64,000 nt of DNA from Desulfacinum sp. (lineage in GTDB: Bacteria > Desulfobacterota > Syntrophobacteria > Syntrophobacterales > DSM-9756). Positions within the stretch are counted from its first letter, which is position 1, and each line of letters begins with the position of its first letter. The position numbers were made by a program, and so were the translations under genes. The DNA is taken from positions 97,001 through 161,000 of the forward strand of contig JACIYN010000017.1 of assembly GCA_014359885.1 (NCBI GenBank), read 5' to 3'. Below, one piece after another: positions 5,128 to 63,697 of the stretch. The notes under the pieces were generated by a model, which saw only the letters and a program-made list of their open reading frames with translations, was not told the DNA's origin and did not search any database.

Positions 5128-7982
5128 ACAGGCATGACGAACCGATCCACCGCTATGCCGTGGGGATCGATCTGGGCACCACCAATTCGGCGGTGGCCTA
5201 CGTGGATCTTGAGGGAGGGGGCGAGGCGCCGTCCAAGAGGATGCGCGTCTTCCACGTTCCCCAGTTGGTGAATGCGGGGGAAGTGGGCCGACGGCCCCTT
5301 CTGCCGTCCTTTCTCTACCTTCCGGGCCCCTACGACCTGCCGGAAGGGGCCACGGCCCTGCCGTGGGCGCCGGATCGGGACTATGCCGTGGGGGAATTCG
5401 CCCGGGAACAGGGGGCCTTGGTTCCGGGCCGCCTGGTCAGTTCCGCCAAGTCCTGGCTGTGCCACGGGGGCGTGGACCGGGAAGCGCCCATTTTGCCGTG
5501 GGGAGCCGGAAAGGACGTTTCCAAGGTGTCTCCCGTGGAGGCGTCCGCCCGGTATCTGCAGCACATTCGGGAAGCCTGGAACCACGTGATGGCCCAGGGC
5601 CGCGACGAGGCCCTGCTGGAAGAACAACTGGTGGTGCTCACCGTCCCGGCCTCCTTCGACGAAGCGGCTCGGGAACTGACCGTGGAGGCCGCCGCCCGGG
5701 CGGGCCTCAAGAAGGTGGTGCTCCTGGAAGAACCCCTGGCGGCCTTCTATTCCTGGCTGGCACGACACGAAGACCGGTGGGCCGAGCGGATGAGTCCGGA
5801 ACAGATCGTGCTCGTCTGCGACGTGGGCGGTGGCACCACGGATTTCAGCGCCATCGTGGTCCGCTCCGGCGAAAAGGGCCTGCGGTTCGACCGGTTGGCC
5901 GTGGGCGACCACCTGATGTTGGGCGGCGACAACATGGACCTCACCCTGGCGCGCCGGCTGGAAATGAAGCTCATGGGAGCGCCCGGAAAGCTGGACGCCA
6001 AGCGCTGGCATCAGCTCTGCCACGGGTGCCGCCGGGCCAAGGAGCTGCTCCTGGCCCACGTGGACGCCCGGGACACGGTGGATGTCACCGTCATGGGAAC
6101 GGGCGGAAAGCTCATCGCCGGGACTCTCAAGGGAACCCTGGCCCGCGACGAGGTGCACCAGTGGATCCTGGACGGATTCTTCCCCCGGGTGGCCCTGGGC
6201 GAGGAGCCCGAAGGGGGCCGCCGGGCCGGCATCACCGAGTTCGGTCTTCCCTACGTCCAGGACCCGGCCGTGACCCGCCATCTGGCGGCGTTCTGGCGGC
6301 GGCACCAGGCCCTCTTCCGGGATCAGACGGACCGCCCGGATCCGATCCCCGATTTTCTGCTCTTCAACGGCGGGGCGCTCATTCCCGCCACCGTCCGCAC
6401 GCGGATCCTGGAAGTGGTGGCCGGCTGGTTCCGCAACCGTGCCGGCGAGGGCTGGCAACCGGTGCAGCTGGACAACCCCCACCCCGACCTGGCGGTGGCC
6501 CTGGGAGCGGCCTACTACGGGATCGTGCGCCTGGGAGCCGGGGTGCGCGTGGGAGCGGGAACGCCCCGGGCCTATTACGTGGAAGTGGCCCGAACGGGCG
6601 AGGAGACGGGAGGCGATCCAAGTCGGCACGCGGTCTGCCTCATCCCCAGGGGAACGGAGGAGGGATACGAAGGAACCCTGGAGGCCCCGGTCTTCGAAGT
6701 CCTCACCAACCAGCCCGCCTCCTTTCAGATCCTCACGTCCCACACCCGGTTGGGAGACCGGCGCGGGGACGTGGTGGATTTGGACCCGGAGGAGGTGACG
6801 GAACTGCCGCCCGTTCGGACGGCCTTGCGGTTCGGGAAAAAGGGGACGGCCCAGAGACTTCCCGTCCAGCTGGCCACCAAGCTGAGCGAGGTGGGGACCC
6901 TGGAAGTGTGGTGCCGGTCTCTCAAAACACCCCACCAGTGGCGCCTCCGGTTCGATGTGCGCCAGCAGCCCGAAGGGGCTCCCGTGGAAAACGGCCCGGC
7001 CGATACGGTGGACGAGGCCGTCTTGGAAGAGGCCCGCCGATGTGTGGCCGACGTCTTCAACCGGGGAAGCGAGGGAGGGCCCGCCCCCGAGAGTCTTCCC
7101 AAGGAGCTGAGCCGCATCCTGGAGATGCCGAAACAGCGATGGTCCATGGCCGTCATCCGCGTCCTGGCCGATGCGCTCCTGGAATGCCGGGAGGGACGCC
7201 GCCGGAGTTTCCGGCACGAGGCCCGATGGCTCAACCTGCTGGGCTACTGCCTCCGGCCGGGCTACGGCGATCCGGTGGACGAATGGCGCATCCGCGAAGT
7301 CTGGAAGCTCTTTCCCCAGGGGGTCCAGTTCCACCGCCAGGTCCAGTGCCGGCTGGAGTGGTGGATCTTCTGGCGCCGCGTGGCCGGAGGGCTCAGTGCC
7401 GGGCAGCAGTGGCACATCTACCAGCAACTCTCCCCCGCCCTGCTCTCCGGTTCCACCGGCAAGAAGAAGGGGAAAAAGAAACCGTCGCTCCGGTTGAGCC
7501 CCCAGGAGCAGACGGAAGCGTGGATGGCCGTGGCCAATTTCGAGCGGCTTCCCGCAGACGCCAAGGAAGTGCTGGGCGGAGAGGTGCTGGCCCGCGTGCT
7601 GTCGAGGAAACCGAGACCCCAGGACCTGTGGACCCTCACGCGGCTGGGAGCCCGAAAGCCCTTCTACGGGCCGGTGGATCGGGTGGTTCCGGCCGAAACG
7701 GCGGCCCGATGGGTCCGGGAGATCCTGGAAGCCCATCCGGTGGCGGAGGAATCGGTGGCCCATGCGGTGGTGCACCTGGCGGCGAGAACAGGCGACCGCG
7801 TGCGGGATCTTCCCCGGGAGATGCTGGATCGCGTGTCCGCCTGGCTGGACGGCCTGGAAGGCGCCGCCGACCGCTTCCGGGACCTGCTCCTTCGTCCGGA
7901 AAGCACGGCCGCCCGCGACGAAGCCGCCTGGCTTTTCGGCGAATCGCTCCCCGTGGGCCTTCGCCTGGCGGAACCGTCATGA
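5124..7982 (+). CDS. Hsp70 family protein with long C-terminal extension (DUF3731-like)
   Basis: A 952-residue protein whose first ~600 residues parallel the upstream Hsp70 closely (GIDLGTTNS, SWLCHGGVDR, CDVGGGTTDFS, FLLFNGGALIP). This indicates an old tandem duplication. The remaining ~330 residues carry a helical domain, with RRVAGGLSAGQQWHIYQQL near 750, that matches my recollection of DUF3731, the domain known to follow Hsp70 in this gene arrangement. The ATG at 5124 overlaps the previous stop by 4 bp. The final TGA falls at the start of a 7-bp tandem repeat. The pair plus DUF2760 forms a three-gene operon. Substrate and exact role are not known to me. Confidence 0.87.
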   Translation: MNRHDEPIHRYAVGIDLGTTNSAVAYVDLEGGGEAPSKRMRVFHVPQLVNAGEVGRRPLLPSFLYLPGPYDLPEGATALPWAPDRDYAVGEFAREQGALVPGRLVSSAKSWLCHGGVDREAPILPWGAGKDVSKVSPVEASARYLQHIREAWNHVMAQGRDEALLEEQLVVLTVPASFDEAARELTVEAAARAGLKKVVLLEEPLAAFYSWLARHEDRWAERMSPEQIVLVCDVGGGTTDFSAIVVRSGEKGLRFDRLAVGDHLMLGGDNMDLTLARRLEMKLMGAPGKLDAKRWHQLCHGCRRAKELLLAHVDARDTVDVTVMGTGGKLIAGTLKGTLARDEVHQWILDGFFPRVALGEEPEGGRRAGITEFGLPYVQDPAVTRHLAAFWRRHQALFRDQTDRPDPIPDFLLFNGGALIPATVRTRILEVVAGWFRNRAGEGWQPVQLDNPHPDLAVALGAAYYGIVRLGAGVRVGAGTPRAYYVEVARTGEETGGDPSRHAVCLIPRGTEEGYEGTLEAPVFEVLTNQPASFQILTSHTRLGDRRGDVVDLDPEEVTELPPVRTALRFGKKGTAQRLPVQLATKLSEVGTLEVWCRSLKTPHQWRLRFDVRQQPEGAPVENGPADTVDEAVLEEARRCVADVFNRGSEGGPAPESLPKELSRILEMPKQRWSMAVIRVLADALLECREGRRRSFRHEARWLNLLGYCLRPGYGDPVDEWRIREVWKLFPQGVQFHRQVQCRLEWWIFWRRVAGGLSAGQQWHIYQQLSPALLSGSTGKKKGKKKPSLRLSPQEQTEAWMAVANFERLPADAKEVLGGEVLARVLSRKPRPQDLWTLTRLGARKPFYGPVDRVVPAETAARWVREILEAHPVAEESVAHAVVHLAARTGDRVRDLPREMLDRVSAWLDGLEGAADRFRDLLLRPESTAARDEAAWLFGESLPVGLRLAEPS

Positions 7983-8047
7983 GTGATGAGTGACGAGTGA
8001 CGGGTGACGAGTTACGGATTACGGACTACGGATTACGGGTGAGGGGG
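7980..8047 (+). repeat. 7-bp tandem repeat array (GAGTGAT/GAGTGAC, GATTACG)
   Basis: Consecutive 7-mers such as GAGTGAC, GGGTGAC and GGATTAC run from the stop codon of the second Hsp70 gene to within about 10 bp of the end of the converging permease gene. The units are imperfect and change along the array. The first unit contributes the Hsp70 TGA stop. Confidence 0.8.
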
Positions 8048-8857: not shown

Positions 8858-8957
8858 CTGTAGGGGCGGGCTTTATGCCCGGCCTCTCATCCCCCATCCC
8901 CCATCCCCCATCACTCGTCACTCGTCACCCGTCACCCGTCACCCGTCACTCATCACT
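8858..8957 (+). repeat. GTAGGGGCGGGC hairpin plus 7-bp tandem array (CCCCCAT, CACTCGT, CACCCGT)
   Basis: A GGGGCGGGCTTTATGCCCGGCC half-palindrome at about 8863 is followed by 7-mers CCCCCAT, then CACTCGT, then CACCCGT. The array runs into the 3' end of the ATPase gene, read on the minus strand. Reading GAGTGATGAG on that strand, the ATPase stop TGA (8953-8955) is part of the array. Confidence 0.8.
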
Positions 8958-9753
8958 CCCCCCGGGTCGCTCGGTCCAGGGCCCTTCGGACCGCCCGGGC
9001 CATGGCATGGAAGGTTTCCTTGTCGCGGTAGGACGGGTCGCCGAATCCCGGGTTTTCCATCACCTCCACGATAGCGGCGGGCCGCCCCGCCAGGACGAGC
9101 ACCCTTTTCCCCAGGAAGACGGCCTCTTCCACGCTGTGGGTGACCAGCACGTACGGAACCCGGAAGCGATTCCAGATCTCCAGCAGGTGGTGCTGGAGCC
9201 GTTCCCGGGTGATGGCGTCCAGGGAGGAAAAGGGCTCATCCAGCAGCAGAAGGCCGGGATCTCCCACCAGAGCCCGGGCGATGGCCACCCGCTGCTGCTC
9301 CCCGCCGCTCAACTGCGACGGGTAGCGGTCTTCCGTTCCGGCAAGGCCGAGCATCTTCAGCATTACGCGCGCCTTCTGGAGGCGCTCCCGGCGGGGGACG
9401 CCGCGGATCTTGAGCCCCAGCGCCACATTGTCCTGCACCGTTTTCCAGGGAAGAAGCCCGAAGTCCTGGAGCACCACGGCGATCTCGGGATGCGGGCGCA
9501 CGATGGGCTCTCCACGATAGCGGACCGTTCCCGCATCGGGACAAAGAAGACCGCACAAGAGGTAGAGCAGCGTGCTCTTGCCGCAGCCGGAAGGACCCAC
9601 CACCGCGTAGGTGTCCCCCCCGCCCACGGTGATGGACACATTTTTCAGAACGTCCGCGCCGTTGGCGCCGAAGCGCTTGGAGAGGTCGTCGGCCCGAAGG
9701 ACGGTCTCGGTTTCGGAATCCTTCCCATAGCCCACGGCAGCCGGCTGGATCAT
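8953..9753 (-). CDS. ABC transporter ATP-binding protein (SsuB/TauB type)
   Basis: A 266-residue nucleotide-binding subunit. It shows Walker A GPSGCGKST near residue 52, signature LSGGEQQRVAIARAL near 148, Walker B LLLLDEPFSSLDA near 170 and the H-loop THSVEEAV near 205. The ATG at 9753 is preceded by CAGGAAG. The longer ORF-track start at 9825 begins inside a GTAGGGGCGAATGATCATTC palindrome, which happens to encode MIIRPY, and is an artefact. The gene energises the permease at 8058-8810 and presumably works with the binding protein at 10139-11122, although 385 bp of repeats separate it from that gene. The last two codons and stop (GAG TGA) coincide with the 7-bp repeat. Confidence 0.9.
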   Translation of the reverse strand: MIQPAAVGYGKDSETETVLRADDLSKRFGANGADVLKNVSITVGGGDTYAVVGPSGCGKSTLLYLLCGLLCPDAGTVRYRGEPIVRPHPEIAVVLQDFGLLPWKTVQDNVALGLKIRGVPRRERLQKARVMLKMLGLAGTEDRYPSQLSGGEQQRVAIARALVGDPGLLLLDEPFSSLDAITRERLQHHLLEIWNRFRVPYVLVTHSVEEAVFLGKRVLVLAGRPAAIVEVMENPGFGDPSYRDKETFHAMARAVRRALDRATRGE

Positions 9754-9808
9754 GGTTCTTCCTGGACGCACTGAGACATGGCCTTGTGCATTTCCCGCTC
9801 GTGGAACG

Positions 9809-9837
9809 TAGGGGCGAATGATCATTCGCCCCTACAG
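9809..9837 (+). repeat. GTAGGGGC...GCCCCTAC palindrome, GAATGATCATTC centre
   Basis: A perfect 28-bp palindrome upstream of the ABC ATPase gene, on the transcript between binding-protein and ATPase genes. It has the same arms as palindromes at 24078, 24511, 29111 and 45624 but a different centre, shared with the cores of the 134-bp elements. Confidence 0.8.
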
Positions 9838-9919
9838 TTATTGGATTTTTAAAGATCCCTGGGAGCCTTTCCGACCATGGCCCTCCGAAACAAGAGCCCG
9901 GGCTATGGCCGCTCTTTTC

Positions 9920-10039
9920 GTAGCCGCGGGGCTTCAGCCCCGCGGAAAAGGCCATCGCAACCTCATGAAGTGACCGGAAATACGCGAGGGCCCATCCAAC
10001 GTTCGGCGGATCTCCCTCAGCCCCAAAGGGCTGGGCTAC
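9920..10039 (+). repeat. GTAG...CTAC multi-hairpin interspersed element, copy 2
   Basis: The 120-bp core has hairpins CCGCGGGGCTTCAGCCCCGCGG, shortened GGCCATCGC...GCG pairing in the middle, and CAGCCCCAAAGGGCTGGG at the end. Similarity to copy 8 (63540) extends upstream to about 9870 (ATGGCCCTCCGAAACAAGAG) and downstream to about 10075, where GGCCATCCG...CGGACGGCC forms a further stem. It splits the ABC transporter operon. Confidence 0.85.
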
Positions 10040-10138
10040 GAGAGGAAAGGCCATCCGTAACGTTTGCGGACGGCCTCTTTGAATCCTTCGGGGTCGCAAT
10101 TGCCGAAATAGGGCATCCGCTCCCCTTGCGATTTCCTT

Positions 10139-11122
10139 TCATTGAGGGGACCGCCACACCAGGTTCTCGTAGGCCACACGTTCCGGGATCATGCCGCGAT
10201 GCACCATCCAGGACTGCACCTGGTCCACCCGCGCGGGATCCGGAAGTCCCGGAGCGGGAAACGCCGGCATGGGAAAGGTTGCCTGCAGGGACGGAGGGAT
10301 GCGGCAGGTACGGCCCATGAGTTCCCGGTACCTTTCCGGGTGTTCCGCAAGGGCGGACACGGCCTCTTCGTAAGCGGCCAGGAACTTGGCGCCGAAGTTC
10401 GGTTCCGATTCCAGAAGATCCCGGCGCAGGCAGACCACCGTGAGCGGGAGATCCAGATCCCCGTCGGTGAGATAGACCTTGGATCCCTTGGATTCCGCCA
10501 GCGTCACCAGGGGCTCCGGAAGAACCGCCAGGTCCAGTTGTCCCGAAAGGAGCATCTGGAGCCGCAGCGGGATCTTCTTGACCTCCATGCGCTTCCAGGT
10601 GCCGGCTGGGATCTGTGCCCGCTCCTCCAGGGTGTCCAGGAGGAATTCCATGATGGTGGCATTGGAAAGCCCTACCGTGGCGGACCCGATGGCGGCGGCC
10701 GAGGGCGCGTCCAGCCCGGGGCGTCCCACCAGGGCGAACATGCGCCGGCCCGGCCGGCTGGCGTAGGAAACGGTGAGAACCTGCATGGGGATGCCGTTTC
10801 TCACCAGCAGGAGCGTGTTCAAAAGATCGCCGAAATACCCCTGGAGCTGGCCGCCCTGCATGGCCGCGTCCCGCTCCAGGGCGCTGTTGAAAGAAACGAG
10901 CTCCACCCGGATGCCTTTCCTTTCAAAGAACCCCTCGTGGACGGCCACCTGCAACGGAAGGGTATCCAGGACGGGAAGGATCCCCATGCGAACGGGCTTC
11001 CGGGCCTGCGCACGGGCATAGCCGGATGCCAGGATCACGAACAAAAAGGCGGCGAAACAGGAAGTGGTCACCTTCAGGACGCCTTTCCTGCAAGTCGCCG
11101 AGTTTCCAGACCTTCGCTGCAT
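10139..11122 (-). CDS. ABC transporter solute-binding protein, SsuA/NMT1 type
   Basis: A ~327-residue periplasmic binding protein. Residues ~1-36 form a signal peptide: a basic start, then CFAAFLFVILASGYARAQA with a likely cleavage after ARA or AQA. The mature part begins with the family pattern VRMGILPVLDTLPLQVAVHEGFFERKGI, in which the small-molecule carrier is exposed to an 'ageing' sulfonate/nitrate-type ligand. The ATG at 11122 has AAAGGAG five bases upstream; the track start two codons earlier is a GTG too close to that site. It is the first gene of the minus-strand ABC set, followed by 385 bp of repeats before the ATPase. The ligand is unknown. Confidence 0.85.
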   Translation of the reverse strand: MQRRSGNSATCRKGVLKVTTSCFAAFLFVILASGYARAQARKPVRMGILPVLDTLPLQVAVHEGFFERKGIRVELVSFNSALERDAAMQGGQLQGYFGDLLNTLLLVRNGIPMQVLTVSYASRPGRRMFALVGRPGLDAPSAAAIGSATVGLSNATIMEFLLDTLEERAQIPAGTWKRMEVKKIPLRLQMLLSGQLDLAVLPEPLVTLAESKGSKVYLTDGDLDLPLTVVCLRRDLLESEPNFGAKFLAAYEEAVSALAEHPERYRELMGRTCRIPPSLQATFPMPAFPAPGLPDPARVDQVQSWMVHRGMIPERVAYENLVWRSPQ

Positions 11123-11292
11123 GGACACTCCTTTCCTGGGAGCAGAAGTTCCGAACCATGGAATCGCACGATGGTCTCAGCCGTTGGGCAGCCATTTTTC
11201 TTGCATTGCGCCCAAAGGTCAAGGAACATTGCCGGGGGTTCATCTCCCAGGAAGTCTCTCCGAGAAGGCCGCGGGGGTTCCCATGACCCGAT

Positions 11293-11323
11293 GCCGCGGG
11301 GCCGAAGCCCCGCGGCTGCGAAA
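11293..11323 (+). repeat. GCCGCGGGGC...GCCCCGCGGC hairpin
   Basis: An isolated copy of the left hairpin of the multi-hairpin element, with loop CGAA, in the 275-bp gap between the divergent binding-protein and cysteine-cluster genes. The rest of the gap shows no gene. Confidence 0.6.
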
Positions 11324-11397
11324 GAAGGCGGATCCCCTGTCCCTGGATGACGGAATCCCGTTCTCGGACAGCCCTCTGGAAAATTCAAGGGGAAACC

Positions 11398-12078
11398 ATG
11401 TGGCGGGAAAGGCCATTCTGGCAGGACATCCTCAAGGAAATCATTGAGTGGCGGACTCTGGAACTTCGGGAAGAGATTCCGGAACCGCGACTGGAAACCC
11501 GCCGGGCCCTTCGGTCCCTCCTGGCGCACCCCTTCTTCAGCCCTCATGCGCGCACCGTTGAGGCGGCCCTTTGGGACCCCTACTTTCCTCTGGGCATGAT
11601 CCGCCGGACCATCCTGGCTGACGTGACGGGCATGCGCTTTTTCATCCACAAGACCCGCCCGGATATTCAGGAGCCCTTAAGTCTCCAGGTGGCGGCCGCG
11701 GCGGAGCTTTTCCTGGAGGCCAAAAGGGACCTGGTTCGGGTCGCGGATCCCATGACCGTCACCTGTGTTCCCTTGGACGGGCGGCTCCACCCCCTGCCCT
11801 CCGGCGGGTGGTGCAGGCTCTGCGGCACCTGCTGCCAGATCGGCGGCGTACAGGCCGAACCGCCTCCGGGAGTGGCCTACCCTCCCCGCTGGGTCGCCAT
11901 GATCGAAGGCAGCGCCCATCCCTATCAGCAGCTGTGCCCCTTTCTCTTCCAGTATTTCGGCCACGACATCTATTTTTGCGCCATCCACCGCATCAAGCCC
12001 CGGGCCTGCGCCGGGTTCGGAGCCGAAGACTGCGCCCGGTGCCGGACGGACATCGCCCTTCATGGGCGTGATCCGTAA
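11398..12078 (+). CDS. YkgJ-type cysteine-cluster protein
   Basis: A 226-residue protein from ATG 11398 (AAGGGG upstream; the track's ATG at 11347 has no ribosome site). The N-terminal ~130 residues are unremarkable and helical. The C-terminal part has the metal-binding pattern CRLCGTCCQIGG, then CPFLF, then FCAIH...RPxxC-like KPRACAGF and DCARC. This arrangement matches the YkgJ / UPF0153 zinc- or iron-binding family, whose biochemical role is not established. It stands alone between the ABC operon and a repeat-filled gap. The last codons (CGT GAT CCG TAA) lie in the first units of a 7-bp tandem array, so the stop codon comes from the repeat. Confidence 0.75.
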   Translation: MWRERPFWQDILKEIIEWRTLELREEIPEPRLETRRALRSLLAHPFFSPHARTVEAALWDPYFPLGMIRRTILADVTGMRFFIHKTRPDIQEPLSLQVAAAAELFLEAKRDLVRVADPMTVTCVPLDGRLHPLPSGGWCRLCGTCCQIGGVQAEPPPGVAYPPRWVAMIEGSAHPYQQLCPFLFQYFGHDIYFCAIHRIKPRACAGFGAEDCARCRTDIALHGRDP

Positions 12079-12167
12079 TCCGTGATCCGTGACGAGTGAC
12101 GAGTGACGAGTGACGGGGGATGGGTGATGGGAGATGGGTGATGGGAGATGGGTGATGGGGGATGGGA
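12066..12167 (+). repeat. 7-bp tandem repeat array (GATCCGT, GAGTGAC, GATGGGT/GATGGGA)
   Basis: Three heptamer types follow each other: GATCCGT, then GAGTGAC, then alternating GATGGGT and GATGGGA. The array starts inside the last codons of the cysteine-cluster gene. A GTAGGGGCGGGGTTTATCCCCGC hairpin follows at about 12278. Confidence 0.85.
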
Positions 12168-14180: not shown

Positions 14181-14303
14181 GGGAGCGTGTCCCAGAAAGC
14201 TGTTTTCCCGGGAGCGCGGGCATCTCGCCCTCTTTTCGTGCGAGCGGGAGGCTTGCGCTCCCAGGGGAAAAGGCTTTCGGGTCCGCTTTCGAACAAGCTC
14301 CCA
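14181..14303 (+). repeat. Nested inverted-repeat element (GGGAGCGC/GCGCTCCC)
   Basis: Outer arms GGGAGCGTGTCCC and AACAAGCTCCC enclose a stem TTTTCCCGGGAGCGC (14203-14217) pairing with GCGCTCCCAGGGGAAAA (14255-14271). It lies between the KaiC-like gene and the next repeat and shares the AAGCTCCCAGGAGCTTG junction motif with the elements at 63470. Confidence 0.65.
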
Positions 14304-14361
14304 GGAGCTTGCCCGCCAATGGCTCTCCGGTTCTCAACGACGGGGTATTTTCGTCCTCCCG

Positions 14362-14482
14362 GTAGCCGCGGGGCTCAAGGCCCGTGGGGAAGGGTCATCG
14401 TAACCCTTTGAAGTCGCAAGCCTTATGCGATGGCCTACCCGACGACCGGGGGCTCCTCCGCAACCCTAAAGGGCTGCACTAC
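14362..14482 (+). repeat. GTAG...CTAC multi-hairpin interspersed element, copy 3
   Basis: A 121-bp core with a partly decayed left hairpin (GCGGGGCTCAAGGCCCGTG), a GGTCATCGT...GCGATGGCC middle pairing and the CAACCCTAAAGGGCTGC end. The upstream flank ATGGCTCTCCGG is also conserved. Together with the preceding element it fills the gap before the receiver gene. Confidence 0.8.
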
Positions 14483-14544
14483 CGGAAAAAGGGTCATCCC
14501 CGAAGTTTTCGGAAAGCCTCCCAGGTCCTCGAAAAGGAGATCCC

Positions 14545-18837: not shown

Positions 18838-19073
18838 TCATTCGCAACTCATCACTCCATCCACCCACGACCCACGGCTCACGCATCACGGACCACGGAC
18901 CACGGATCACGGATCACGGACCACGGATCACGGACCACGGATCACGGATCACGGACCACGGATCACGGACCACGGATCACGGATCACGGACCACGGATCA
19001 CGGACCACGGATCCCTTGGAAACTGGGGAGAATCATGGCCCGTCACTCGTTACTCGTCACCCGTCACTCATAA
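18838..19073 (+). repeat. Long 7-bp tandem repeat array (ATCACGG/ACCACGG)
   Basis: The longest heptamer array in the window. From about 18890 to 19013, ATCACGG and ACCACGG units alternate almost without interruption. Looser CACTCGT-type units occur on the right, up to the livK Shine-Dalgarno. With the preceding ~150 bp, which shows no gene, it occupies the gap between the hybrid kinase and livK genes. Confidence 0.9.
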
Positions 19074-20336: not shown

Positions 20337-20343
20337 AAAGACG

Positions 20344-20486
20344 GAGCCTGTCCGAGAACGATTGATTTGCGCCGTTCAACGCCCATTCGTCATCCCCGCG
20401 GAAGCGGGGATCCTGACTTTTCTGTAAGTTATGGACTCCCGCTTGCGCGGGAGTGACGGTTCGGCGAGTTCTCGGACAAGCTCCCA
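20344..20486 (+). repeat. TIR-bounded palindromic element, copy 1 (GGAGCCTGTCCGAGAAC ends)
   Basis: The ends GGAGCCTGTCCGAGAAC (left) and GTTCTCGGACAAGCTCC (right) are inverted repeats. Inside are GTCATCCCCGC...GCGGGGATCC and GGACTCCCGC...GCGGGAGTGACGG hairpins. Copies occur at 29357-29482 (inverted) and 63338-63479. It lies between livK and livH. Confidence 0.85.
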
Positions 20487-20523
20487 GCGATCTGCTGATA
20501 ACCGCCAACCGAAAGCGGAAAAC

Positions 20524-20582
20524 GGACAACGCATCACGCATCACGGATAACGGATCACGGATCACGGACAACGGATCACGAA
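20524..20582 (+). repeat. 7-bp tandem repeat array (ATCACGG and variants) at the livH start
   Basis: CGCATCACGGATAACGGATCACGG-type heptamers run to within 5 bp of the livH ATG, so the array occupies the place where a ribosome-binding site would be. Confidence 0.8.
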
Positions 20583-20586
20583 AACC

Positions 20587-21447
20587 ATGGAATCCCTTCT
20601 CACCAACGCTCTGAACGGCCTGAGCTGGGGCATGCTGCTCTTTCTCATCTCCGTGGGTCTCACCACGATCTTCGGCGTCCTGGGGGTCCTCAATTTCGCC
20701 CACGGCTCCCTTTTCATGTTGGGAGCCTACGGCACCATGACGGTGATGCACCTCTTCCCCTCCTTCTGGGCGGGGGTGCTCATTGCGCCGGTGGCCACGG
20801 CGCTACTGGGCATGGCGCTGGAAGTGACCCTCCTTCGGCGGGTGTACGGACGCGATGTGAGCTATCAACTGCTCCTGACCTTCGCTGTCCTCCTGGTCTT
20901 GGATGACGCCGTGCGCATCGTCTGGGGACCGGCCTACCACGTGGTGGACCCCCCTGCCCTGCTGGCCGGAACCGTGCCCCTCTTTGCCCATTCCTACCCC
21001 GTTTACCGGCTCTTTCTCATCGCCGTGGGGCCGGTGCTGGGCCTGGCCCTGTGGGCCTTCTTTTCCTGGACGCGCTGGGGGAAAATCATCCGGGCGGCGG
21101 CCCAGGATCGGGAGATGGCCGAAGGGGTGGGCATCCGCGTGCCGCTCCTCTTCACGCTGGTCTTCGGCCTGGGGGCGTGGCTGGCCGCCTTGGGAGGCGC
21201 CCTGGCGGCCCCCCACCAGAGTGTGGGGCCGGCCATGGGCGAAAGGATCATCATCGAAAGCTTCATCGTGGTGGTGGTGGGAGGCCTGGGGAGCTTTCCC
21301 GGGGCGTTTGCTGGCGCCCTGCTCCTGGGGCTCCTGGAGGCCTTCGGCACCACCTTTGCCGGTCGGGTGCAGATGGCGCTGCCCTATCTGCTGCTGGCCC
21401 TGGTGCTGTTGGTGAGGCCGCGGGGGCTTTTGGGAAGGGAGGTGTGA
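20587..21447 (+). CDS. livH: Branched-chain amino acid-type ABC permease LivH
   Basis: A 286-residue inner-membrane permease with about eight hydrophobic segments. It carries the LivH pattern GLTTIFGVLGVLNFAHGSLFMLGAY at residues ~28-52 and the conserved EAA-like loop AAAQDREMAEGVGI near 170. It normally pairs with LivM, which starts on the last base of this gene's stop (TGATG). There is no Shine-Dalgarno before the ATG, because a 7-bp tandem array ends 4 bp upstream. Expression may therefore depend on leaderless or weak initiation, or the true start may differ. Assignment to the family is secure; the substrate is not. Confidence 0.88.
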   Translation: MESLLTNALNGLSWGMLLFLISVGLTTIFGVLGVLNFAHGSLFMLGAYGTMTVMHLFPSFWAGVLIAPVATALLGMALEVTLLRRVYGRDVSYQLLLTFAVLLVLDDAVRIVWGPAYHVVDPPALLAGTVPLFAHSYPVYRLFLIAVGPVLGLALWAFFSWTRWGKIIRAAAQDREMAEGVGIRVPLLFTLVFGLGAWLAALGGALAAPHQSVGPAMGERIIIESFIVVVVGGLGSFPGAFAGALLLGLLEAFGTTFAGRVQMALPYLLLALVLLVRPRGLLGREV

Positions 21448-23893: not shown

Positions 23894-24014
23894 GTAGCCG
23901 CGGGGCTTCCGCCCTGCGGGGAAGGGCCATCGCAACTTCATGAAGTGCCGGGGAATAGGCGACGGCCCGTCCAACGTCTGGGGCTTCCTCCGCAGCCCTG
24001 AAGGGCTGCGCTAC
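23894..24014 (+). repeat. GTAG...CTAC multi-hairpin interspersed element, copy 4
   Basis: A 121-bp core 27 bp after livF. The left hairpin is GCCGCGGGGCTTCCGCCCTGCGG, the middle stem GGGCCATCGC...GCGACGGCCC and the right hairpin GCAGCCCTGAAGGGCTGC. A CCGCAGCG...-type stem follows downstream. First of four repeats in the 856-bp livF to crotonase interval. Confidence 0.88.
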
Positions 24015-24105: not shown

Positions 24106-24216
24106 GCCAGTGACATCCGGTTCTTGGACCATTTGGGCGGAAGCCGGGTGGGCCCACGAGCTTGTGCGCCAAGGGCATTGCGCCACCAGATCCCGGGCGG
24201 CCGCAGCGCTCTTTTC

Positions 24217-24339
24217 GTAGCCGCAGGGCTTCCGCCCCGGGGAAAAGGTCCTTCGTAGCCCAATGACACAACAGGCGATAGGCCCCGATAGCCCACCCGA
24301 AGTTCGGAAGTCTTCCGCAGCCCTGAAGGGCTGCGCTAC
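24217..24339 (+). repeat. GTAG...CTAC multi-hairpin interspersed element, copy 5
   Basis: A 123-bp core with a somewhat decayed left hairpin (CCGCAGGGCTTCCGCCCCGG) and an intact right hairpin GCAGCCCTGAAGGGCTGC. The downstream stem GGCCATCGG...TTGGACGGCC is also conserved. The sequence between copies 4 and 5 shows no gene. Confidence 0.85.
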
Positions 24340-24510
24340 GAGAAAATCGGCCATCGGTAACGTTTTGGACGGCCCCATAGAGCCTTAAGGGCGGTGCGAC
24401 GATGAAAAGTCCGCCCGGCGATTCATCGCACCCAACGCCCGGCCAATGCGCTCCCGATCCGGGTCAACCGCCATGCCCCCGCATGCAAAAGCCTCTGATC
24501 CCGCCCCTCG

Positions 24511-24538
24511 GTAGGGGCGAAGGATCCTTCGCCCCTAC
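24511..24538 (+). repeat. GTAGGGGC...GCCCCTAC palindrome, GAAGGATCCTTC centre
   Basis: A perfect 28-bp palindrome with a third centre type. The remaining ~185 bp to the crotonase gene end shows nothing I can assign. Confidence 0.85.
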
Positions 24539-24723
24539 AACCACGTGGAGGCCCCTCTTTTCGTTGATGGGCCCGCCGAACGGCAGCACGTCGGAGCCTT
24601 TCGAACGGCGGGAGGCTCCGCCGCCCTTGTGGGGGCGTGCTTCGCTTCTGCCCTTCAAAACCCCACGACAGCAAAGAATCGCCCGATTCGGGTGGGAGCC
24701 GGCCTCGGAGCTCGCCGGTTCCG

Positions 24724-25675: not shown

Positions 25676-26836
25676 ATGGAATTTATCGATCTGAAAGCCC
25701 AGCAGAAGCGGATCCGCCTTTTGTTGGAAAAGCGGATCGGCGCGGTTCTGGACCACGGCCGGTACGTCCTGGGGCCGGAAGTCATCGAACTGGAAGAGGA
25801 GCTGGCCCGCTACGTGGGGGTGCGCCACGCGGTGAGCTGCGCCTCCGGCACGGACGCGCTCCTCATGGTCCTCATGGCCTGGGGCGTGGGGCCCGGCCAC
25901 GTGGTCTTCACCACCCCGTTTACCTTCATTGCCACGGCGGAGGTGGTGGCCCTGTTGGGAGCGGTTCCGGTCTTCGTGGACGTGGATCCCGAAACGTTCA
26001 ACATGGACCCGGAGAAGCTCCGCCTGGCCGCGGAAGCTCTGGACCGGGACGACCCGTCGCTGCACCCCCTGCCCCAAGCGGCCCGGGGATGCCGGGCCAA
26101 GGCCGTCATTCCCGTGGACCTTTTCGGCCTTCCCGCCGACTACCCGGAGATCGAGCAGGTGGCGACCGAGCGTGGGCTGAAGGTTCTGGAGGATGCGGCC
26201 CAGTCCTTCGGGGCGTCCCTGGGAGGTATCCGGGCGGGCCGGTTCGGCCATGGGGCGGCCACGAGCTTTTTCCCCGCCAAACCCCTGGGAGGCTACGGCG
26301 ACGGGGGCATGTGCTTGACCGACGACGGCGAGCTGGCGGAACGGCTCCGCTCCATCCGGGTCCATGGCCAGGGAAGCCATCGCTACGACCATGTGCGGCT
26401 GGGAATCAACGGGCGCCTGGATACGCTGCAGGCGGCGGTGCTGCTGGCCAAGATGACGATCTTCGACGAGGAGCTGATGCTCCGCCAACAGGCCGCCGAA
26501 CGCTACCGGGAGCTCCTGGAACGCCACCGGCCCGATCTGCAGCTCCAGCACATCCCGGACGGCGCCGTGTCCGCCTGGGCCCAATTTTCCGTCGTCGCCC
26601 CCAGCGAACAGGATCGGGACGCCCTCCGGAAACGCCTGGAGGATGCCGGAATCCCCACGGCCGTCTACTACCCGGTGCCGCTCCACCTGCAGCCCGCCTT
26701 CGCGCATCTGGGCTACAAGGAAGGGGACTTCCCGGTAAGCGAGGACCTGGCCCGACGCATCTTCGCCCTGCCCATGCATCCGTATTTGTCGGCGGAAGAG
26801 CAGCAACACATAGTGGGAGTGATGAGTGATGAGTGA
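25676..26836 (+). CDS. DegT/DnrJ/EryC1/StrS family PLP-dependent aminotransferase
   Basis: A ~386-residue sugar-type aminotransferase. Visible blocks are FIDLKAQQKRI at the start, GPEVIELEEELARYVGVRHAVSCASGTDAL near 30-55, DAAQSFGASLGG near 182, and the PLP lysine in TSFFPAKPLGGYGDGG near 203. It converts a keto-sugar nucleotide to an amino sugar in the known family. The ATG at 25676 has GGTG upstream; an earlier in-frame GTG at 25667 is possible. No other nucleotide-sugar gene is next to it, so the pathway is unknown. Its last codons (GTG ATG AGT GAT GAG TGA) are already part of a 7-bp tandem array. Confidence 0.87.
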   Translation: MEFIDLKAQQKRIRLLLEKRIGAVLDHGRYVLGPEVIELEEELARYVGVRHAVSCASGTDALLMVLMAWGVGPGHVVFTTPFTFIATAEVVALLGAVPVFVDVDPETFNMDPEKLRLAAEALDRDDPSLHPLPQAARGCRAKAVIPVDLFGLPADYPEIEQVATERGLKVLEDAAQSFGASLGGIRAGRFGHGAATSFFPAKPLGGYGDGGMCLTDDGELAERLRSIRVHGQGSHRYDHVRLGINGRLDTLQAAVLLAKMTIFDEELMLRQQAAERYRELLERHRPDLQLQHIPDGAVSAWAQFSVVAPSEQDRDALRKRLEDAGIPTAVYYPVPLHLQPAFAHLGYKEGDFPVSEDLARRIFALPMHPYLSAEEQQHIVGVMSDE

Positions 26837-26886
26837 TGAGTGATGAGTGATGGGTGATGGGTGATGAGAGATGGGGGATGGAGGTG
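26818..26886 (+). repeat. 7-bp tandem repeat array (GAGTGAT, GGGTGAT, GGGGGAT)
   Basis: About nine units of GAGTGAT changing to GGGTGAT and GAGATGG-type heptamers. It starts within the DegT-gene C-terminal codons and ends against the stop of the converging four-helix-bundle gene. Confidence 0.88.
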
Positions 26887-26889
26887 GAG

Positions 26890-27312
26890 TCAGGTGGGGG
26901 GATGTTGCTTGAAATGGCGCAGGAGTCCTAAAAGAAGCTTGCGCACCTGTTCGATCTTGCTTTCCAGGCTTTCGTCCCGGGCTAGGCCCAAATCGGTGGC
27001 AAGTATCCATTGGGTTTCCAGCTCGGCCAGCGAACCCAGGGCAACGTAAAGAAATTGAATGAATTCCTTTCTGGAATTGCGTGCGGCACCTTCGGCGATG
27101 TTGCAGGGAACGGACACCGCAGCGCGCCTCATCTGGGCCGTCATCCCATAAACTTCTTCCTTGGGGAACCGTGAGGTGACTAGGTAGACGGCCTTGGCCA
27201 AATCCATGGCGGCTTTCCAGAGTTCCAGATCCTTGTGGGTGCGCACCTCCGCCTCCTGCCTTCTACCTTCCTGGGCTTCCCTGCTCACCTGTATGTCATC
27301 TGTATCAAGCAT
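26890..27312 (-). CDS. Four helix bundle protein (S23-like)
   Basis: A 140-residue protein matching the four-helix-bundle / 23S rRNA intervening-sequence (TIGR02436) family. It shows HKDLELWKAAMDLAKAVY near residue 27, RRAAVSVPCNIAEGAAR near 62 and FIQFLYVALGSLAELETQ near 84. The fold is known, the function is not. In some bacteria relatives are encoded inside rRNA genes; here it lies alone after purN, separated from it by 7-bp repeats, and in the same direction. The C-terminal residues (HPPT) approach another heptamer array. The start ATG at 27312 lacks a strong ribosome site. Confidence 0.8.
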   Translation of the reverse strand: MLDTDDIQVSREAQEGRRQEAEVRTHKDLELWKAAMDLAKAVYLVTSRFPKEEVYGMTAQMRRAAVSVPCNIAEGAARNSRKEFIQFLYVALGSLAELETQWILATDLGLARDESLESKIEQVRKLLLGLLRHFKQHPPT

Positions 27313-29138: not shown

Positions 29139-29227
29139 AGGGTGGGTGTCGGTTTTGGGTCCCGGGGCTGGGAGCTTTTCTGAGAATGGCTCCCCGGCCC
29201 AAGAGGCCCGGGATCTCCGTTCTTCTT

Positions 29228-29351
29228 GTAGCCGCGGGGCTTCAGCCCCGCGGGAAAAAGCCGTCATACCTCCATATCGTGATGGAGATCATGCCCGGTG
29301 GCCTATCCGACGTCCGGGGATCTCCTCCGCAGCCCTAAAGGGCTGCGCTAC
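29228..29351 (+). repeat. GTAG...CTAC multi-hairpin interspersed element, copy 6
   Basis: A 124-bp core with intact left hairpin (CCGCGGGGCTTCAGCCCCGCGG) and right hairpin (GCAGCCCTAAAGGGCTGC). The middle is more diverged. Its right end runs without a break into the inverted TIR-bounded element at 29357. Confidence 0.85.
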
Positions 29352-29356
29352 GAGAA

Positions 29357-29482
29357 CTCTGCAAACCGTCACTCCCGCGCAAGCGGGAGTCCATAGGTTT
29401 CCGGAAATCCTGGATCCCAGCTTTCGCGGGGATGACGGATGCAGACAAAACGACGCAAAGAACCCATTGTCAGACAGCCTCC
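29357..29482 (-). repeat. TIR-bounded palindromic element, copy 2 (inverted), overlapping the purSL stop
   Basis: Read on the minus strand this starts GGAGGCTGTCTGACAATGG, as in the copy at 63338, and carries the GTCATCCCCGC...GGATCC and GGACTCCCGC...GTGACGG hairpins. Its outer inverted repeat contains the purSL stop codon (GAG GCT GTC TGA), so the last three or four residues of PurSL are encoded by the repeat. Confidence 0.85.
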
Positions 29483-32475
29483 TGGCCCTTTCGGCCGCAC
29501 CAGGCCTGCCGGAGGGTTTCCAGCGGCACGTTCAGAAGCTCCTTTCCGTCGCTTGTCCGGATTCGAAAGGCGGGCGCCTCGGTCACCTCCCCGATCCGGC
29601 CCGCGGGAAGCCCCTTCATGAGTTCTTCGAAGGCGGTGATCCCATGGGGCGGCACGGTCACCAGAAAGCGCCCCAGGGACTCGCTGAAGAGCAAAGCGGA
29701 AGGGGAAAGATCGCCATCCGCCGGCACGCGGCTCAGGTCCCACACCATGCCCAGCCGCCCGGCAAACGCCGCCATGGCCCCATGCACGGCGAGGCCCCCC
29801 CTTCCCACGGCGCGGCAGGAAGCGCAAAGCCCTCGGGCCACGGCCTGTTCCAGGGCGCGGTAGAGCTTGAGAAAGTCTTCCGGGCGGGCGCGCGGAACGT
29901 TCAGGCCCACGTGGCCCAAATGCTCGTAGTATTCGGACGCCCCCAGCTCGTTTCGGGTGATCCCCAGCACGTAGACCGCATCCCCGGGCATCTTCACGTC
30001 CATGGTGAGGCAGCGGTTCACGTCGGGCACCACCGTGGTGGCGGTGAACTGCATGGTGGGAAGCCCCGACACCTTGTGGCGTTCGCCGTAGGCTCCGGGA
30101 AGGTGGCCGTCCACGTACATGCTGTCCTTTCCGGAAAGGAGCGGGATGCCGTAGGCCAGGCACATGTCCCGCAGCGCCCAGTTGGCCCGCACCAGCTGGG
30201 CCGCCTTGTATCGCCCGTCCGGGTTCTTTTCCGGATCGTACTGGATGTTGGGCCAGCAGAAGTTGTCCACCCCGCCGATCTCATCCAGGATCCCGCCCAC
30301 GGCGAGAAGCCGGCGCACGCATTCGTCGATGGACGCTTCCACCATGTGGTAGGTGTCGATCTGCGAATAGGTAGGGTGGAGCGCCTGGGTGACGGCCAGT
30401 CCCCGGTTGGAGGTGAGCACCGGCCGGATGACCGCCGCATCGTTGGGTACGTCCCGATCGCGGCCCACCAGGAACTTCACCGCGCTGGTTCCCTGCACTT
30501 CGTGATCGTATTGGCGCTGGATCCACTCCCGGCTGCACAGGTTGGGCGAGGCCAGAAGATCGCACAGGAGGCGGCCGAAATCCTGCGGTTCGCTCAACAC
30601 GGGTTCCGTCAGGCCTCTCGATTGGGGCGACCGCCACTGGGCGTCGAACTCCCACTGGGGAAAATCCTCGCGGAAGAAGCTCAGGTCCAGGTAGGCGCAG
30701 GTGCGGCCTTCGTAGGTGAGGTGGAGCTTTCCCGAATCTTCGTAGCGACCGATCACGGTGCATTCCACCTCATGGAGGCGGGCCAGTTCCATGAACCGGT
30801 CCAGGTTCTCCGGCCGCACGGCCACCGTCATGCGCTCCTGGGATTCGGAAACCCAGATCTCCCACACGTCCAGGCCCTCGTACTTGAGCGGTACCTTGTC
30901 CAGCTCCACCACGGCGCCCCCGGCCATCTGAGCCGATTCGCCGATGGACGACGAGAGCCCGCCGCCTCCGTTGTCGGTGATGAAGGTGATGAGCCCCTCG
31001 TCCCGGGCTTCCAGGAGAAAGTCGTGCATCTTCTTCTGGGTGTAGGGATCGCCGATCTGCACGTGGCCCGCCGGGGTGTGTTCGCTGTAGCTTTCGCTGG
31101 AGGCCGTGACCCCGTGGATGCCGTCCTTCCCCACCCGGCCCCCGGCCATGATGATGAGATCTCCGGGGTTGGGTTTCTTCCGCTCCGTGGGTTCCCCTTT
31201 CACGGTCTTGGGCATGAGGCCGATGGCGCCCACGAAGACCAGGCATTTTCCAAGGTAGGAGGGGTGATACAGGAGGTTTCCGAAGACCGTGGGAACCCCG
31301 TGCTTGTTGCCCCCGTCGCGCACACCTTCCACCACGCCGTCCAGGAGCCGGCGCGGATGCAGGTGCGGGCGGAGCGGGCCGGCGTAGTCCCGGGGGCCCA
31401 CGCAGTAGCCGTAGAGGCCGGCGATGAGGCGCGAGCCCTTTCCGGTTCCCATGGGATCCCGGTAGACGCCCACGATGCCGGTGAGGGCCCCGCCGTAGGC
31501 TTCCATGTTGGAGGGGCTGTTGTGGGTTTCTCCCGTGATCACGTAGTGGTGGTCGTCGTCGAAGCGGGCCACCCCGGCGTTGTCCCACAGGACCGACACC
31601 ACCCAGTCCTTTTCCTGTTGGATCTTCAGGGTGGGAGCTTCGATGCAGGTCCTGAAGAGGCTGTCCACCACGGCTTCTTCGCCGGAATCGGGATCGCGGT
31701 AGAAGAATTTCCCCCGGAAGGTGTTGTGGTTGCAGTGGTCGCTTCGGGCCTGGCTGATGGCTTCCAGCTCCACGTCCGTGGGAAGATCAAGGCCCACCTT
31801 GCGCCGCTCTTCCACCACCTCCGGCCGGAGGAAGTAGGCCCGGATCACGGGGATGTCCCGGGGATGGAGCGCCAGGTTTCGTTCATCGCTCAGCCTCTTG
31901 AGCTCTTCGTCGCTGCCGATGGCGAGGGTCTGCACCGTCGGTGTGTGGGCCAGGTCCACCTTGGGGAGAATGAAGCCGATGCCATGCCGGGAATCCCAGT
32001 CCTTCGGGGCGTAGATGCGCCACTGCTGGATGATGTCGTTGGCCAGCAGTTCCCGGGCGATGGTGTCCACCTGTTCGCGGCTGAGTGGGGCGTCCCGGAG
32101 CAGCACCAATTTGGAGGTGTAGGCGGCCGCATGGGGAGGCAACGGCCGTTGCAGGAAGTCGGTGATGGCCTCCAGGGCCACGCTTCCGGCCGTATCCCGC
32201 ACACCCGGGCGGAACCCCACCCAGACGGCCCAGTCGAAATCCTCAGGTCTTGCCAGGGGCCCATAACTGGAAACCTGGGTCACAGGGTTGGTGAAGATCT
32301 CCGTGCGAACGGCTTCCAGCTCCGATTCGTTCAGACCGGCGTCCAGCATGAGCACATGGATCACACGGGCGCTTCCCACGTGCCAGCCGAAATAGTCGTG
32401 GATCATCCGGCACAGGCCGGATCCTTCCGCATCGAAAAGGTGAGGCTTGAGAGCGATCTCCAATCTGGCTGCCAT
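29470..32475 (-). CDS. purL: Phosphoribosylformylglycinamidine synthase, PurS-PurL fusion
   Basis: A 1001-residue ATP-dependent amidotransferase for the fourth step of purine synthesis. The PurL core begins near residue 200 and includes EAISQARSDHCNHNTFRG near 235 and the ATP-site GGRVGKDGIHG near 455. The first ~200 residues resemble PurS-type domains (GLNESELEAVRTEIFTNPVTQ), which fits the fused PurSL form known in sulfate reducers. The ATG at 32475 matches the family; the ORF track's extra 23 residues overlap mntP. It is followed by purQ and purN. The C-terminal EAV and stop lie in a repeat end. Confidence 0.9.
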   Translation of the reverse strand: MAARLEIALKPHLFDAEGSGLCRMIHDYFGWHVGSARVIHVLMLDAGLNESELEAVRTEIFTNPVTQVSSYGPLARPEDFDWAVWVGFRPGVRDTAGSVALEAITDFLQRPLPPHAAAYTSKLVLLRDAPLSREQVDTIARELLANDIIQQWRIYAPKDWDSRHGIGFILPKVDLAHTPTVQTLAIGSDEELKRLSDERNLALHPRDIPVIRAYFLRPEVVEERRKVGLDLPTDVELEAISQARSDHCNHNTFRGKFFYRDPDSGEEAVVDSLFRTCIEAPTLKIQQEKDWVVSVLWDNAGVARFDDDHHYVITGETHNSPSNMEAYGGALTGIVGVYRDPMGTGKGSRLIAGLYGYCVGPRDYAGPLRPHLHPRRLLDGVVEGVRDGGNKHGVPTVFGNLLYHPSYLGKCLVFVGAIGLMPKTVKGEPTERKKPNPGDLIIMAGGRVGKDGIHGVTASSESYSEHTPAGHVQIGDPYTQKKMHDFLLEARDEGLITFITDNGGGGLSSSIGESAQMAGGAVVELDKVPLKYEGLDVWEIWVSESQERMTVAVRPENLDRFMELARLHEVECTVIGRYEDSGKLHLTYEGRTCAYLDLSFFREDFPQWEFDAQWRSPQSRGLTEPVLSEPQDFGRLLCDLLASPNLCSREWIQRQYDHEVQGTSAVKFLVGRDRDVPNDAAVIRPVLTSNRGLAVTQALHPTYSQIDTYHMVEASIDECVRRLLAVGGILDEIGGVDNFCWPNIQYDPEKNPDGRYKAAQLVRANWALRDMCLAYGIPLLSGKDSMYVDGHLPGAYGERHKVSGLPTMQFTATTVVPDVNRCLTMDVKMPGDAVYVLGITRNELGASEYYEHLGHVGLNVPRARPEDFLKLYRALEQAVARGLCASCRAVGRGGLAVHGAMAAFAGRLGMVWDLSRVPADGDLSPSALLFSESLGRFLVTVPPHGITAFEELMKGLPAGRIGEVTEAPAFRIRTSDGKELLNVPLETLRQAWCGRKGQEAV

Positions 32476-33465: not shown

Positions 33466-33525
33466 CTCCGTGATCCGTAATCCGTGAACCGTGGTCCGTG
33501 ATCCGTGGTCCGTGGTCCTGGGGGA
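33466..33525 (+). repeat. 7-bp tandem repeat array (GATCCGT/GGTCCGT)
   Basis: About eight GATCCGT, AATCCGT and GGTCCGT heptamers just upstream of the PilZ gene. The units are the complement of those at 18890-19013. Confidence 0.85.
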
Positions 33526-45340: not shown

Positions 45341-45414
45341 TGACCCTCCGGGAGCTGTGGCCTTGCCCGAAAACGGGCTTCCGTCTGAAACCGGTGAGGA
45401 TCCTGACCTCCTTC

Positions 45415-45536
45415 GTAGCCCCGGGGCTTCAGCCCCGGGAAAAAGGGGCCATCGGAACCCTCTGAACTGACGGGCAATACCCGATGGTCCGCCCGACATC
45501 CGGGGATTCCTCCGCATCCCTGAAGGGCTGCGCTAC
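45415..45536 (+). repeat. GTAG...CTAC multi-hairpin interspersed element, copy 7
   Basis: A 122-bp core: left hairpin CCCCGGGGCTTCAGCCCCGGG, middle GGCCATCGG...CCGATGGTCC (both arms changed together relative to copy 8), and right hairpin GCATCCCTGAAGGGCTGC. It lies in the 467-bp miaB to bifunctional nuclease gap; downstream is another palindrome at 45624 and then sequence with no assignable content. Confidence 0.85.
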
Positions 45537-45623
45537 GAGAAAGGCGGTGACCTCCGGCCTTTTCAGACAAGCTCCATGGCCTTGGGAAATTCCGCCTCAA
45601 AGGATCATCCGTCCGGAATCGGT

Positions 45624-48066: not shown

Positions 48067-48127
48067 GCCGGAATCCGCTGCCGCTGGTAGGCTGTTCGCA
48101 AACGCCGGGGCTGAGCCCGACTCTCGG

Positions 48128-48153
48128 AGCGCAACCCTTCAGGGCTGCGCTAG
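48128..48153 (+). repeat. Isolated right hairpin of the multi-hairpin element
   Basis: GCAACCCTTCAGGGCTGC followed by GCTAG, a decayed partial copy. The rest of the 278-bp ade to ferritin-like gap shows no gene, only a weak promoter. Confidence 0.6.
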
Positions 48154-48248
48154 GAATTAGGGAAGCGCATGGACCGATTGGATGGGGGGAGGCGGGGTCT
48201 ATTGCCGCCTGCTGATCACCCGGTTAGAGAGAAAGCCGAGGAAAGAGG

Positions 48249-48278
48249 TTGCCCACGGGCCGCGGCTCTTGCTATGAG
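48249..48278 (+). promoter_or_regulatory. Possible promoter for the ferritin-like gene
   Basis: TTGCCC, an 18-bp spacer and TATGAG, ~65 bp before the start codon. Matches are only 4/6 in each box. Confidence 0.3.
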
Positions 48279-53535: not shown

Positions 53536-53565
53536 GAGCCCGCAAGCATGGGGACCCATTCATGT

Positions 53566-53630
53566 GGGGACGGTTCGCCAACCGCCCCGACCGCCCTTTC
53601 CCGCGGGGCTAAAGCCCCGCGGGTACGCAA
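53566..53630 (+). repeat. Two degenerate hairpin repeats after the YcaO gene
   Basis: A decayed GTGGGGACGGTTCGCCAACCGCCCC palindrome is followed by the left hairpin CCGCGGGGCTAAAGCCCCGCGG, in a 561-bp gene-free gap that also holds the elements at 53644 and 54053. Confidence 0.65.
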
Positions 53631-53643
53631 GAAGCCGGCTCTC

Positions 53644-53777
53644 TTTATATGAAACGCGAGGTCGTTCCATTCGCGCGCGCGGCCTGTAGGGGCGAATAAT
53701 CATTCGCCCCTACAGGGGTCTGCTTGCCAAAGGGGCGTTTCATCCTTCGTTGTCACGGGCCGTCCGTGATGGGGGTT
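53644..53777 (-). repeat. 134-bp interspersed element, copy B (inverted)
   Basis: Reverse complement of copy A (2074-2207) with the same length and only scattered differences. It includes the GTGACAACGAAGGATGAAACGC and GCGTTTCATATAAA arms. It is followed by a GTGAAAGAAAACCGCGAATG motif (53780) that also occurs, inverted, next to copy C. Confidence 0.85.
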
Positions 53778-54052
53778 AATGTGAAAGAAAACCGCGAATG
53801 AACGCGAATAGACGCAAATCTTTTTAGTTGTAGAAACCGCGAAGGCCGCAATGAGGGTGCCCGGCCATGCAAGGGGCGCGCAGCGACTCCTAGAGAATGG
53901 CCTATTGCGGGGTTCCGACAAATGCCCTTGCTCCGGCCCGCTCTTTCATCCATGCGAGGTGGCGCGCGGGGAGCCATGACTGTTAGAAAGATTCACGTCT
54001 ATTGCCGTTCAGTGGCGGTTGCCCTTCACCTTACCCCCATCACCAGGCGCCT

Positions 54053-54080
54053 GTAGGGGCGAATGATGATGCGCCCCTAG
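54053..54080 (+). repeat. Degenerate GTAGGGGC palindrome
   Basis: GTAGGGGCGAATGATGATGCGCCCCTAG. Mutations have broken the centre. It lies 16 bp from the end of the M16 peptidase gene. The remaining ~270 bp of the gap has no recognisable feature. Confidence 0.65.
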
Positions 54081-54096
54081 TAAAGACGGCGGCACG

Positions 54097-57142: not shown

Positions 57143-57341
57143 GAGACCCTACTCCTTCTTTCTGGCGCTCGGGGCAGTCCTTGCCAGTTCCGCTGCGTGT
57201 CGAGCTCTTTCATCCCGGGGTCCATTCCGCCGGAAGACTGACTCTAGGGATGAGGCTCTCTCGTGTCAAGCTCCGATTGCCCCGCCGCTCATGGGAACCA
57301 CAGGAGGGAAAGCAAGGTTTGAACTTGGCTATCCTGTGGAG

Positions 57342-62006: not shown

Positions 62007-63479
<1,473 letters not shown>

Positions 63480-63539
63480 AGGAGCTTGTCTGACAATGGC
63501 TCTCCGAGACAAGAGCCCGAGCTATGGGCCCTCTTTTCG

Positions 63540-63659: not shown

Positions 63660-63697
63660 GAGAAAAGAGATCATCCGCGGCGTTCTCGGGCGGTCTC

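Follow-up and report, generated by a model that had tools for sequence, protein, structure and literature searches.

Background

GTAG-tagged REPs arranged as head-to-head dimers were described by Di Nocera et al. 2013 (PMC3733652), who noted that in Anabaena and others such dimers lie inside longer palindromes, and REPINs were described by Bertels and Rainey 2011 (PMC3116915). One member of the IS1182 family has been reported to target inverted repeats (PMC5678879); we found nothing direct in the literature on IS1182 MITEs at CTAG. Neither the way in which REPs and REPINs spread nor the reason why hosts retain them has been settled.

In a 64,000-nucleotide stretch of a Desulfacinum sp. genome, hereafter the window, we analysed a repeated multi-hairpin element that is, with a probability of roughly 0.7, a MITE of about 220 bp with IS1182-family ends, mobilised in trans and carrying a REPIN-like interior that matches the REPs of a RAYT gene in D. 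infernum. Like the GTAG REP dimers (PMC3733652), the element is extragenic, has GTAG outside two inverted hairpins, is a heterodimer (REP1 and REP2) with a structured spacer in the range of 20-100 bp, and shares its REPs with the flanks of a RAYT gene. Unlike them, the Desulfacinum dimer is almost never alone: a pattern search of ~1.7 Mb returned 87 REP1-REP2 pairs and no REP1-REP1 or REP2-REP2 pairs, against 38 unpaired matches, many of which lie within units that are decayed or were half-missed by the pattern. Its outer palindrome, moreover, is the end of a mobile element and is common to core-less elements and an insertion sequence. With REPINs (PMC3116915) it shares an inverted REP doublet whose spacer is far less conserved than its ends, together with compensatory changes and a single-copy RAYT with matching REPs, but the doublet consists of two different REPs inside a larger unit that appears to move by other ends. 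IS1182-derived MITEs are likewise short and non-coding, with a CTAG-type target, and the ~16-bp inverted ends are common to IS1182-family insertion sequences of the same genus; unlike such MITEs, the Desulfacinum unit carries REPIN cargo, and a 140/163-bp sister family represents the ordinary form. Escherichia coli BIMEs are also mosaics of inverted REPs in intergenic DNA, from which the present element is set apart by layout, with two REPs fixed in a TIR-bound unit. The REP pair and the MITE are thus both known kinds, and their fusion into one unit is unusual. Because REP dimers inside palindromes have been noted before, we regard the combination as a variation on known systems and not as a separate kind.

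The REP pair core

The original prediction placed eight copies of a core element in the window, and a covariance model of the core finds all eight (114-156 bits, E ~4e-38 or better). Seven are on the plus strand (9920-10039, 14362-14482, 23894-24014, 24217-24339, 29228-29351, 45415-45536 and 63539-63659, the last previously placed at 63540) and one is on the minus strand (1951-2072). All are intergenic, as had been proposed, relative to a crude codon-bias gene set that covers 79% of the window and gives approximate gene positions. The same model also matches weaker relics on the minus strand at 11195-11327 (38.9 bits), 53556-53634 and 48118-48277. The relic at 48118-48277 is very degenerate, and a similarly degenerate one occupies the corresponding place in the third Desulfacinum genome (G002 C7:32861-32995), which suggests that the element family is older than the split between the two genomes.

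The core is REPIN-like: two different GTAG REPs lie in inverted orientation with their tails outward. In the copy on which the prediction was centred, REP1 (9920-9945, plus strand) consists of GTAG followed by CCGCGGGGC, a loop and GCCCCGCGG; a spacer containing an imperfect internal hairpin follows (GGCCATCGC ..., 9949-9993, limits approximate), and then REP2 in inverted orientation (10016-10039, minus strand), which in most copies reads GCAGCCC, a loop, GGGCTGC and GCTAC. The GTAG tail adjoins a hairpin of 6-13 bp, and the doublet is inverted, extragenic and present at high copy number, as is characteristic of GTAG REPs and REPINs. When the core is folded as single-stranded DNA both hairpins form, and GTAG and CTAC remain unpaired beside them. 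Of the predicted GTAG...CTAC ends, the inverted copy at 1951-2072 has lost GTAG and reads GTGTCG. Three of the predicted three to four hairpins recur, including the GGCCATCGC-type internal hairpin, but the fourth, downstream hairpin, which is seen at 9920-10080, is not general, and the stretch in which it lies forms a longer unit's right arm.

The full unit and its sister elements

The shared core had been put at 120-124 bp, which sets the boundaries too narrowly: the unit proper measures about 220 bp and terminates at outer inverted repeats. In an alignment of the flanks of 89 copies, conservation breaks off abruptly some 53 bases upstream of the core model and some 34 bases downstream of it, at CTAGGAGCCTGTCCGA on the left and TCGGACAGGCTCCTAG on the right. 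These inverted ends are ~16 bp long, and their positions relative to the core are fixed (-53/-52 and +34). Allowing at most 4 mismatches in 16, a threshold that shuffled sequence passes at 3% per end, 58 of 92 copies possess both ends, 28 possess one and 6 neither. The median unit, with flanking tetramers included, is 223 bp, but these tetramers are identical in only 11 of the 50 better-preserved copies, which counts against the MITE reading. Being short, non-coding and bounded by terminal inverted repeats, the unit has the form expected of a MITE, and the reach of the conserved block to fixed inverted ends led us to reject, as a full account, a simple REP/BIME in which the GTAG...CTAC core is the mobile unit.

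The predicted copy is a full unit on the plus strand (9859-10081), made up of a left inverted end (9859-9874, matching the consensus CTAGGAGCCTGTCCGA with few mismatches), left arm, REP pair core, right arm and right inverted end. Further full units on the same strand surround the cores at 14362-14482 (14301-14524), 24217-24339 (24154-24380, ends decayed), 45415-45536 (45355-45578) and 63539-63659 (63478-63701). The plus-strand core at 23894-24014 has decayed outer inverted ends, the plus-strand unit around core 29228-29351 (29168-29359) has only a left inverted end and adjoins a sister element, and the outer ends of the degenerate minus-strand copy at 1951-2072 are unrecognisable.

The inverted ends of the unit also bound sister elements of 140/163 bp, which lack the REP core. 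CTAG is the commonest flanking tetramer on both sides of these elements, and the two tetramers are identical in 15 of 24. Within the window they occur at 63338-63477 (140 bp), at 20343-20487 and at 29351-29483; the last is related to the one at 63336-63468, in the opposite orientation, and is mostly absent at the corresponding D. infernum site. Representatives of a third family with the same inverted ends, of 117-118 bp and containing a long inner GC-rich hairpin, are found elsewhere (L222 4799-4916, L233 2266-2383 and L172 4984-5100).

Copy number and distribution

The original prediction called for a covariance-model search of the genome and its relatives, and this yielded many copies in Desulfacinum and few elsewhere. 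At least 150 strong copies are present in the window's genome, all candidates scored having matched the core model, and 47 copies lie in the 864 kb that we examined in detail; these numbers exclude chance. Extrapolation to 4.33 Mb gives about 235 copies per genome, numbers above 150 being extrapolated throughout. The density in D. infernum is similar, with 51 distinct matches in ~880 kb (52 match rows, of which one place was read twice from overlapping stretches), and the third genome of the genus contains weaker copies. Outside Desulfacinum, core-model matches are rare among 60 relatives. A single strong and isolated match (98 bits) was encountered in another family of the same order (G008 C9:67809-67942, L036), which reflects either recent transfer or contamination.

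Filled and empty sites

Comparison with D. infernum identified orthologous sites that differ in occupancy, from which sites with messier differences were left out. The clearest case (G000 C40) is a filled site with TCCTAG on either side, whereas the empty D. infernum site has TCCTAG once, and a reverse case, filled in D. infernum and empty in G000, was also observed. Within the window, the 364-bp tandem at 63338-63701, of which the 140-bp sister element forms the first half and the full unit the latter half, is replaced in D. infernum by a single CTAG. The predicted copy corresponds to a 231-bp gap (9862-10092) relative to an uninterrupted D. infernum site, with one gap edge not exactly at the right inverted end; the counterpart in the third genome gave no core-model match, in a stretch that aligns poorly. 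Other sites are occupied in both species: those of the copies at 1951-2072 and 14301-14524 are also filled in D. infernum, which likewise has an orthologous copy of 45355-45578. The clean filled and empty sites terminate at the outer inverted ends, outside the REP doublet. Empty sites and a target-site duplication, as expected of a MITE, are both represented, the duplication being CTAG in the clearest cases and decayed in many copies. Parsimony is the sole guide to which state is ancestral at these sites.

Relationship to IS1182-family insertion sequences

IS1182-family fragments in two related genomes end in the inverted repeat sequence of the unit, so that these ends are shared with an autonomous type of element. 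In the third Desulfacinum genome the ends read CTAGGAGCTTGTCCGAGAAT on the left and ATTCTCGGACAAGCTCCTAG on the right, and the inverted repeat of IS1182-type fragments is found at seven contig ends on the right side and two on the left; in D. infernum, GTTCTCGGACAGCCTCCTAG occurs at three contig ends. Contig breaks at such ends suggest a multi-copy element. The right ends of the elements match the D. infernum insertion sequence end far beyond chance, and one D. infernum end directly adjoins a unit copy. Both transposase fragments have NCBIfam IS1182 as their best-matching family, with scores that, as expected of fragments, fall far under the full-length cut-off; the elements are read as end fragments only, and the transposase was never recovered whole. 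The 119-contig assembly to which the window belongs yielded no IS1182 copy, although repeats can drop out of an assembly of this kind, and the assemblies examined are fragmented. No transposase framed by the unit's inverted ends was evident in 1.7 Mb; long inverted-end pairs in the same 1.7 Mb, considered as transposase carriers, enclose apparently unrelated host genes.

A RAYT with the same REPs

The original prediction also proposed a hunt for a RAYT with matching flanks, and D. infernum provides one that is flanked by exactly these two REPs. The 161-aa protein scores 106 bits against NCBIfam REP_Tyr_transpos (cut-off 80), contains an intact HLH motif and the tyrosine motif YIFENPVR, and has TnpA-REP (4er8) as its nearest solved structure. 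A full unit lies just upstream of the gene start (model match 87 bp upstream), and downstream there is a lone REP2 16 bp past the stop and a lone REP1 further out. Since lone REPs are rare, those at this gene are unlikely to be accidental.

The 119-contig assembly that holds the window yielded no intact cognate RAYT. The only short RAYT of that genome (L001 1378-1884, minus strand) is the nearest homologue there of the D. infernum protein (38% identity); it was rejected as a driver, as it carries other REPs (GTAGGGGCGGGC) and has lost the HUH histidine, the motif reading HIR. Its D. infernum counterpart (L109) is broken, and both are flanked by GTAGGGGCGGGC-type REPs. Three long Y1_Tnp genes (316 aa, 334 aa and one cut by a contig end) were rejected because they have no adjoining GTAG REPs, and RAYT homologues from elsewhere in the class share only 36-40% identity and lack these REPs. 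In another subgroup, two Y1_Tnp-like genes (L167 3658-4170, minus strand; L113 1102-1746, plus strand) each contain a GTAGGGGCG...CGCCCCTAC palindrome in the coding region and have another just outside.

Divergence within the unit and its possible origin

Mean pairwise distances among copies with both ends are lowest in the two REPs, at 0.088 and 0.077. The spacer stands at 0.29, the inverted ends at 0.29 and 0.33, and the arms at 0.49 and 0.40, which puts divergence in the REPs three- to six-fold below that in the surrounding parts of the unit. Distances in the arms and core are correlated (Mantel r 0.27 on the left, P 0.0005; 0.18 on the right, P 0.03), as expected for a unit copied as one block. 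A divergence of about 0.3 in the inverted ends, against 0.08-0.09 in the REP hairpins, is nevertheless odd if recognition had recently depended on these ends alone.

The element had been described as non-autonomous, REP/BIME- or MITE-like and mobilised in trans; it appears to be both at once, the outer inverted repeats that match IS1182 having been missed. We suggest that an IS1182-type MITE acquired a REPIN and then spread with it as cargo, an IS1182-type DDE transposase most likely having inserted the unit in trans at CTAG-like sites. The REP hairpins, which may derive from, or still be recognised by, the RAYT, would have been preserved afterwards or meanwhile by a further process, for which RAYT recognition, a function that the hairpins serve in single-stranded DNA or in mRNA, and homogenisation are candidates; selection may keep the hairpins. 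A stronger version is conceivable, though we hold it to be doubtful: the unit would be a chimera readable by both HUH and DDE transposases, in which a REPIN spread inside an IS1182 MITE and its REP ends were selected for RAYT recognition or host function.

It is unlikely that the GTAG...CTAC core itself moves as a RAYT-mobilised REPIN and inserts into a particular palindrome, which we have read as inverted ends. The REP ends are the best conserved parts (0.088 and 0.077, against 0.29-0.49 elsewhere), as in REPINs (PMC3116915), their tags stay unpaired in the single-stranded fold, a RAYT with the same REPs exists, and REP dimers within palindromes are on record (PMC3733652). However, no unit with joined arms and no core was found in ~1.7 Mb, the same ends serve sister elements that move without the core, and the edges of presence and absence, as judged from sequence comparison, appear to fall outside the doublet that a RAYT would mobilise. 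Still less probable is a structured RNA or transcription element, such as a terminator or mRNA 3'-end stabiliser, whose function would account for its spread or retention. Several copies fold strongly (z to -5.1), their location is intergenic, and in a stem alignment fitted to the structure 93% of cells are paired, with 8 pairs changed on both sides against 3.7 in shuffles; covariation is therefore present above shuffles but modest, as one slid control (slide -2) also gave 8. The folded RNA offered earlier as an alternative gained no positive support, as no curated RNA family in Rfam was matched and the interval 9700-10300 around the predicted copy showed neither a promoter-like nor a terminator-like site, and occupancy varies between close relatives. 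Simple decayed duplications with no mobility mechanism, to which the original prediction would have yielded had both covariation and orthologous sites with and without the element been absent, are very improbable: degeneration, or the loss of one end, in several copies would fit them, but this reading is contradicted by the fixed ends, the CTAG flanks, the match to insertion sequence ends and the unit-sized presence and absence at loci unrelated to one another.

On the preferred reading of an IS1182-type MITE with REPIN cargo, a REP pair has been dispersed to ~235 sites by an apparently different transposition system, yet the REPs are the least diverged part of the unit. The case helps to separate REP conservation by recent copying from conservation by REP function, and Desulfacinum offers closely related genomes suited to testing the cause.

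Other repeats in the window

A second repeat family in the window consists of the palindrome GTAGGGGCGAATGATNATTCGCCCCTAC, with symmetric GTAG...CTAC (2122-2167, 9792-9837, 24495-24540, 53670-53715, 54037-54082 and 57372-57417). Some copies lie within longer repeats of 110-139 bp (2069-2207, 53644-53782 and 57341-57450). Tandem heptamers of the GATCACG/GGTGATG type occur in plus orientation at 7962-8045, 12064-12166, 18850-19051, 20484-20615 and 26815-26895, and inverted at 8884-8973 and 33467-33518.
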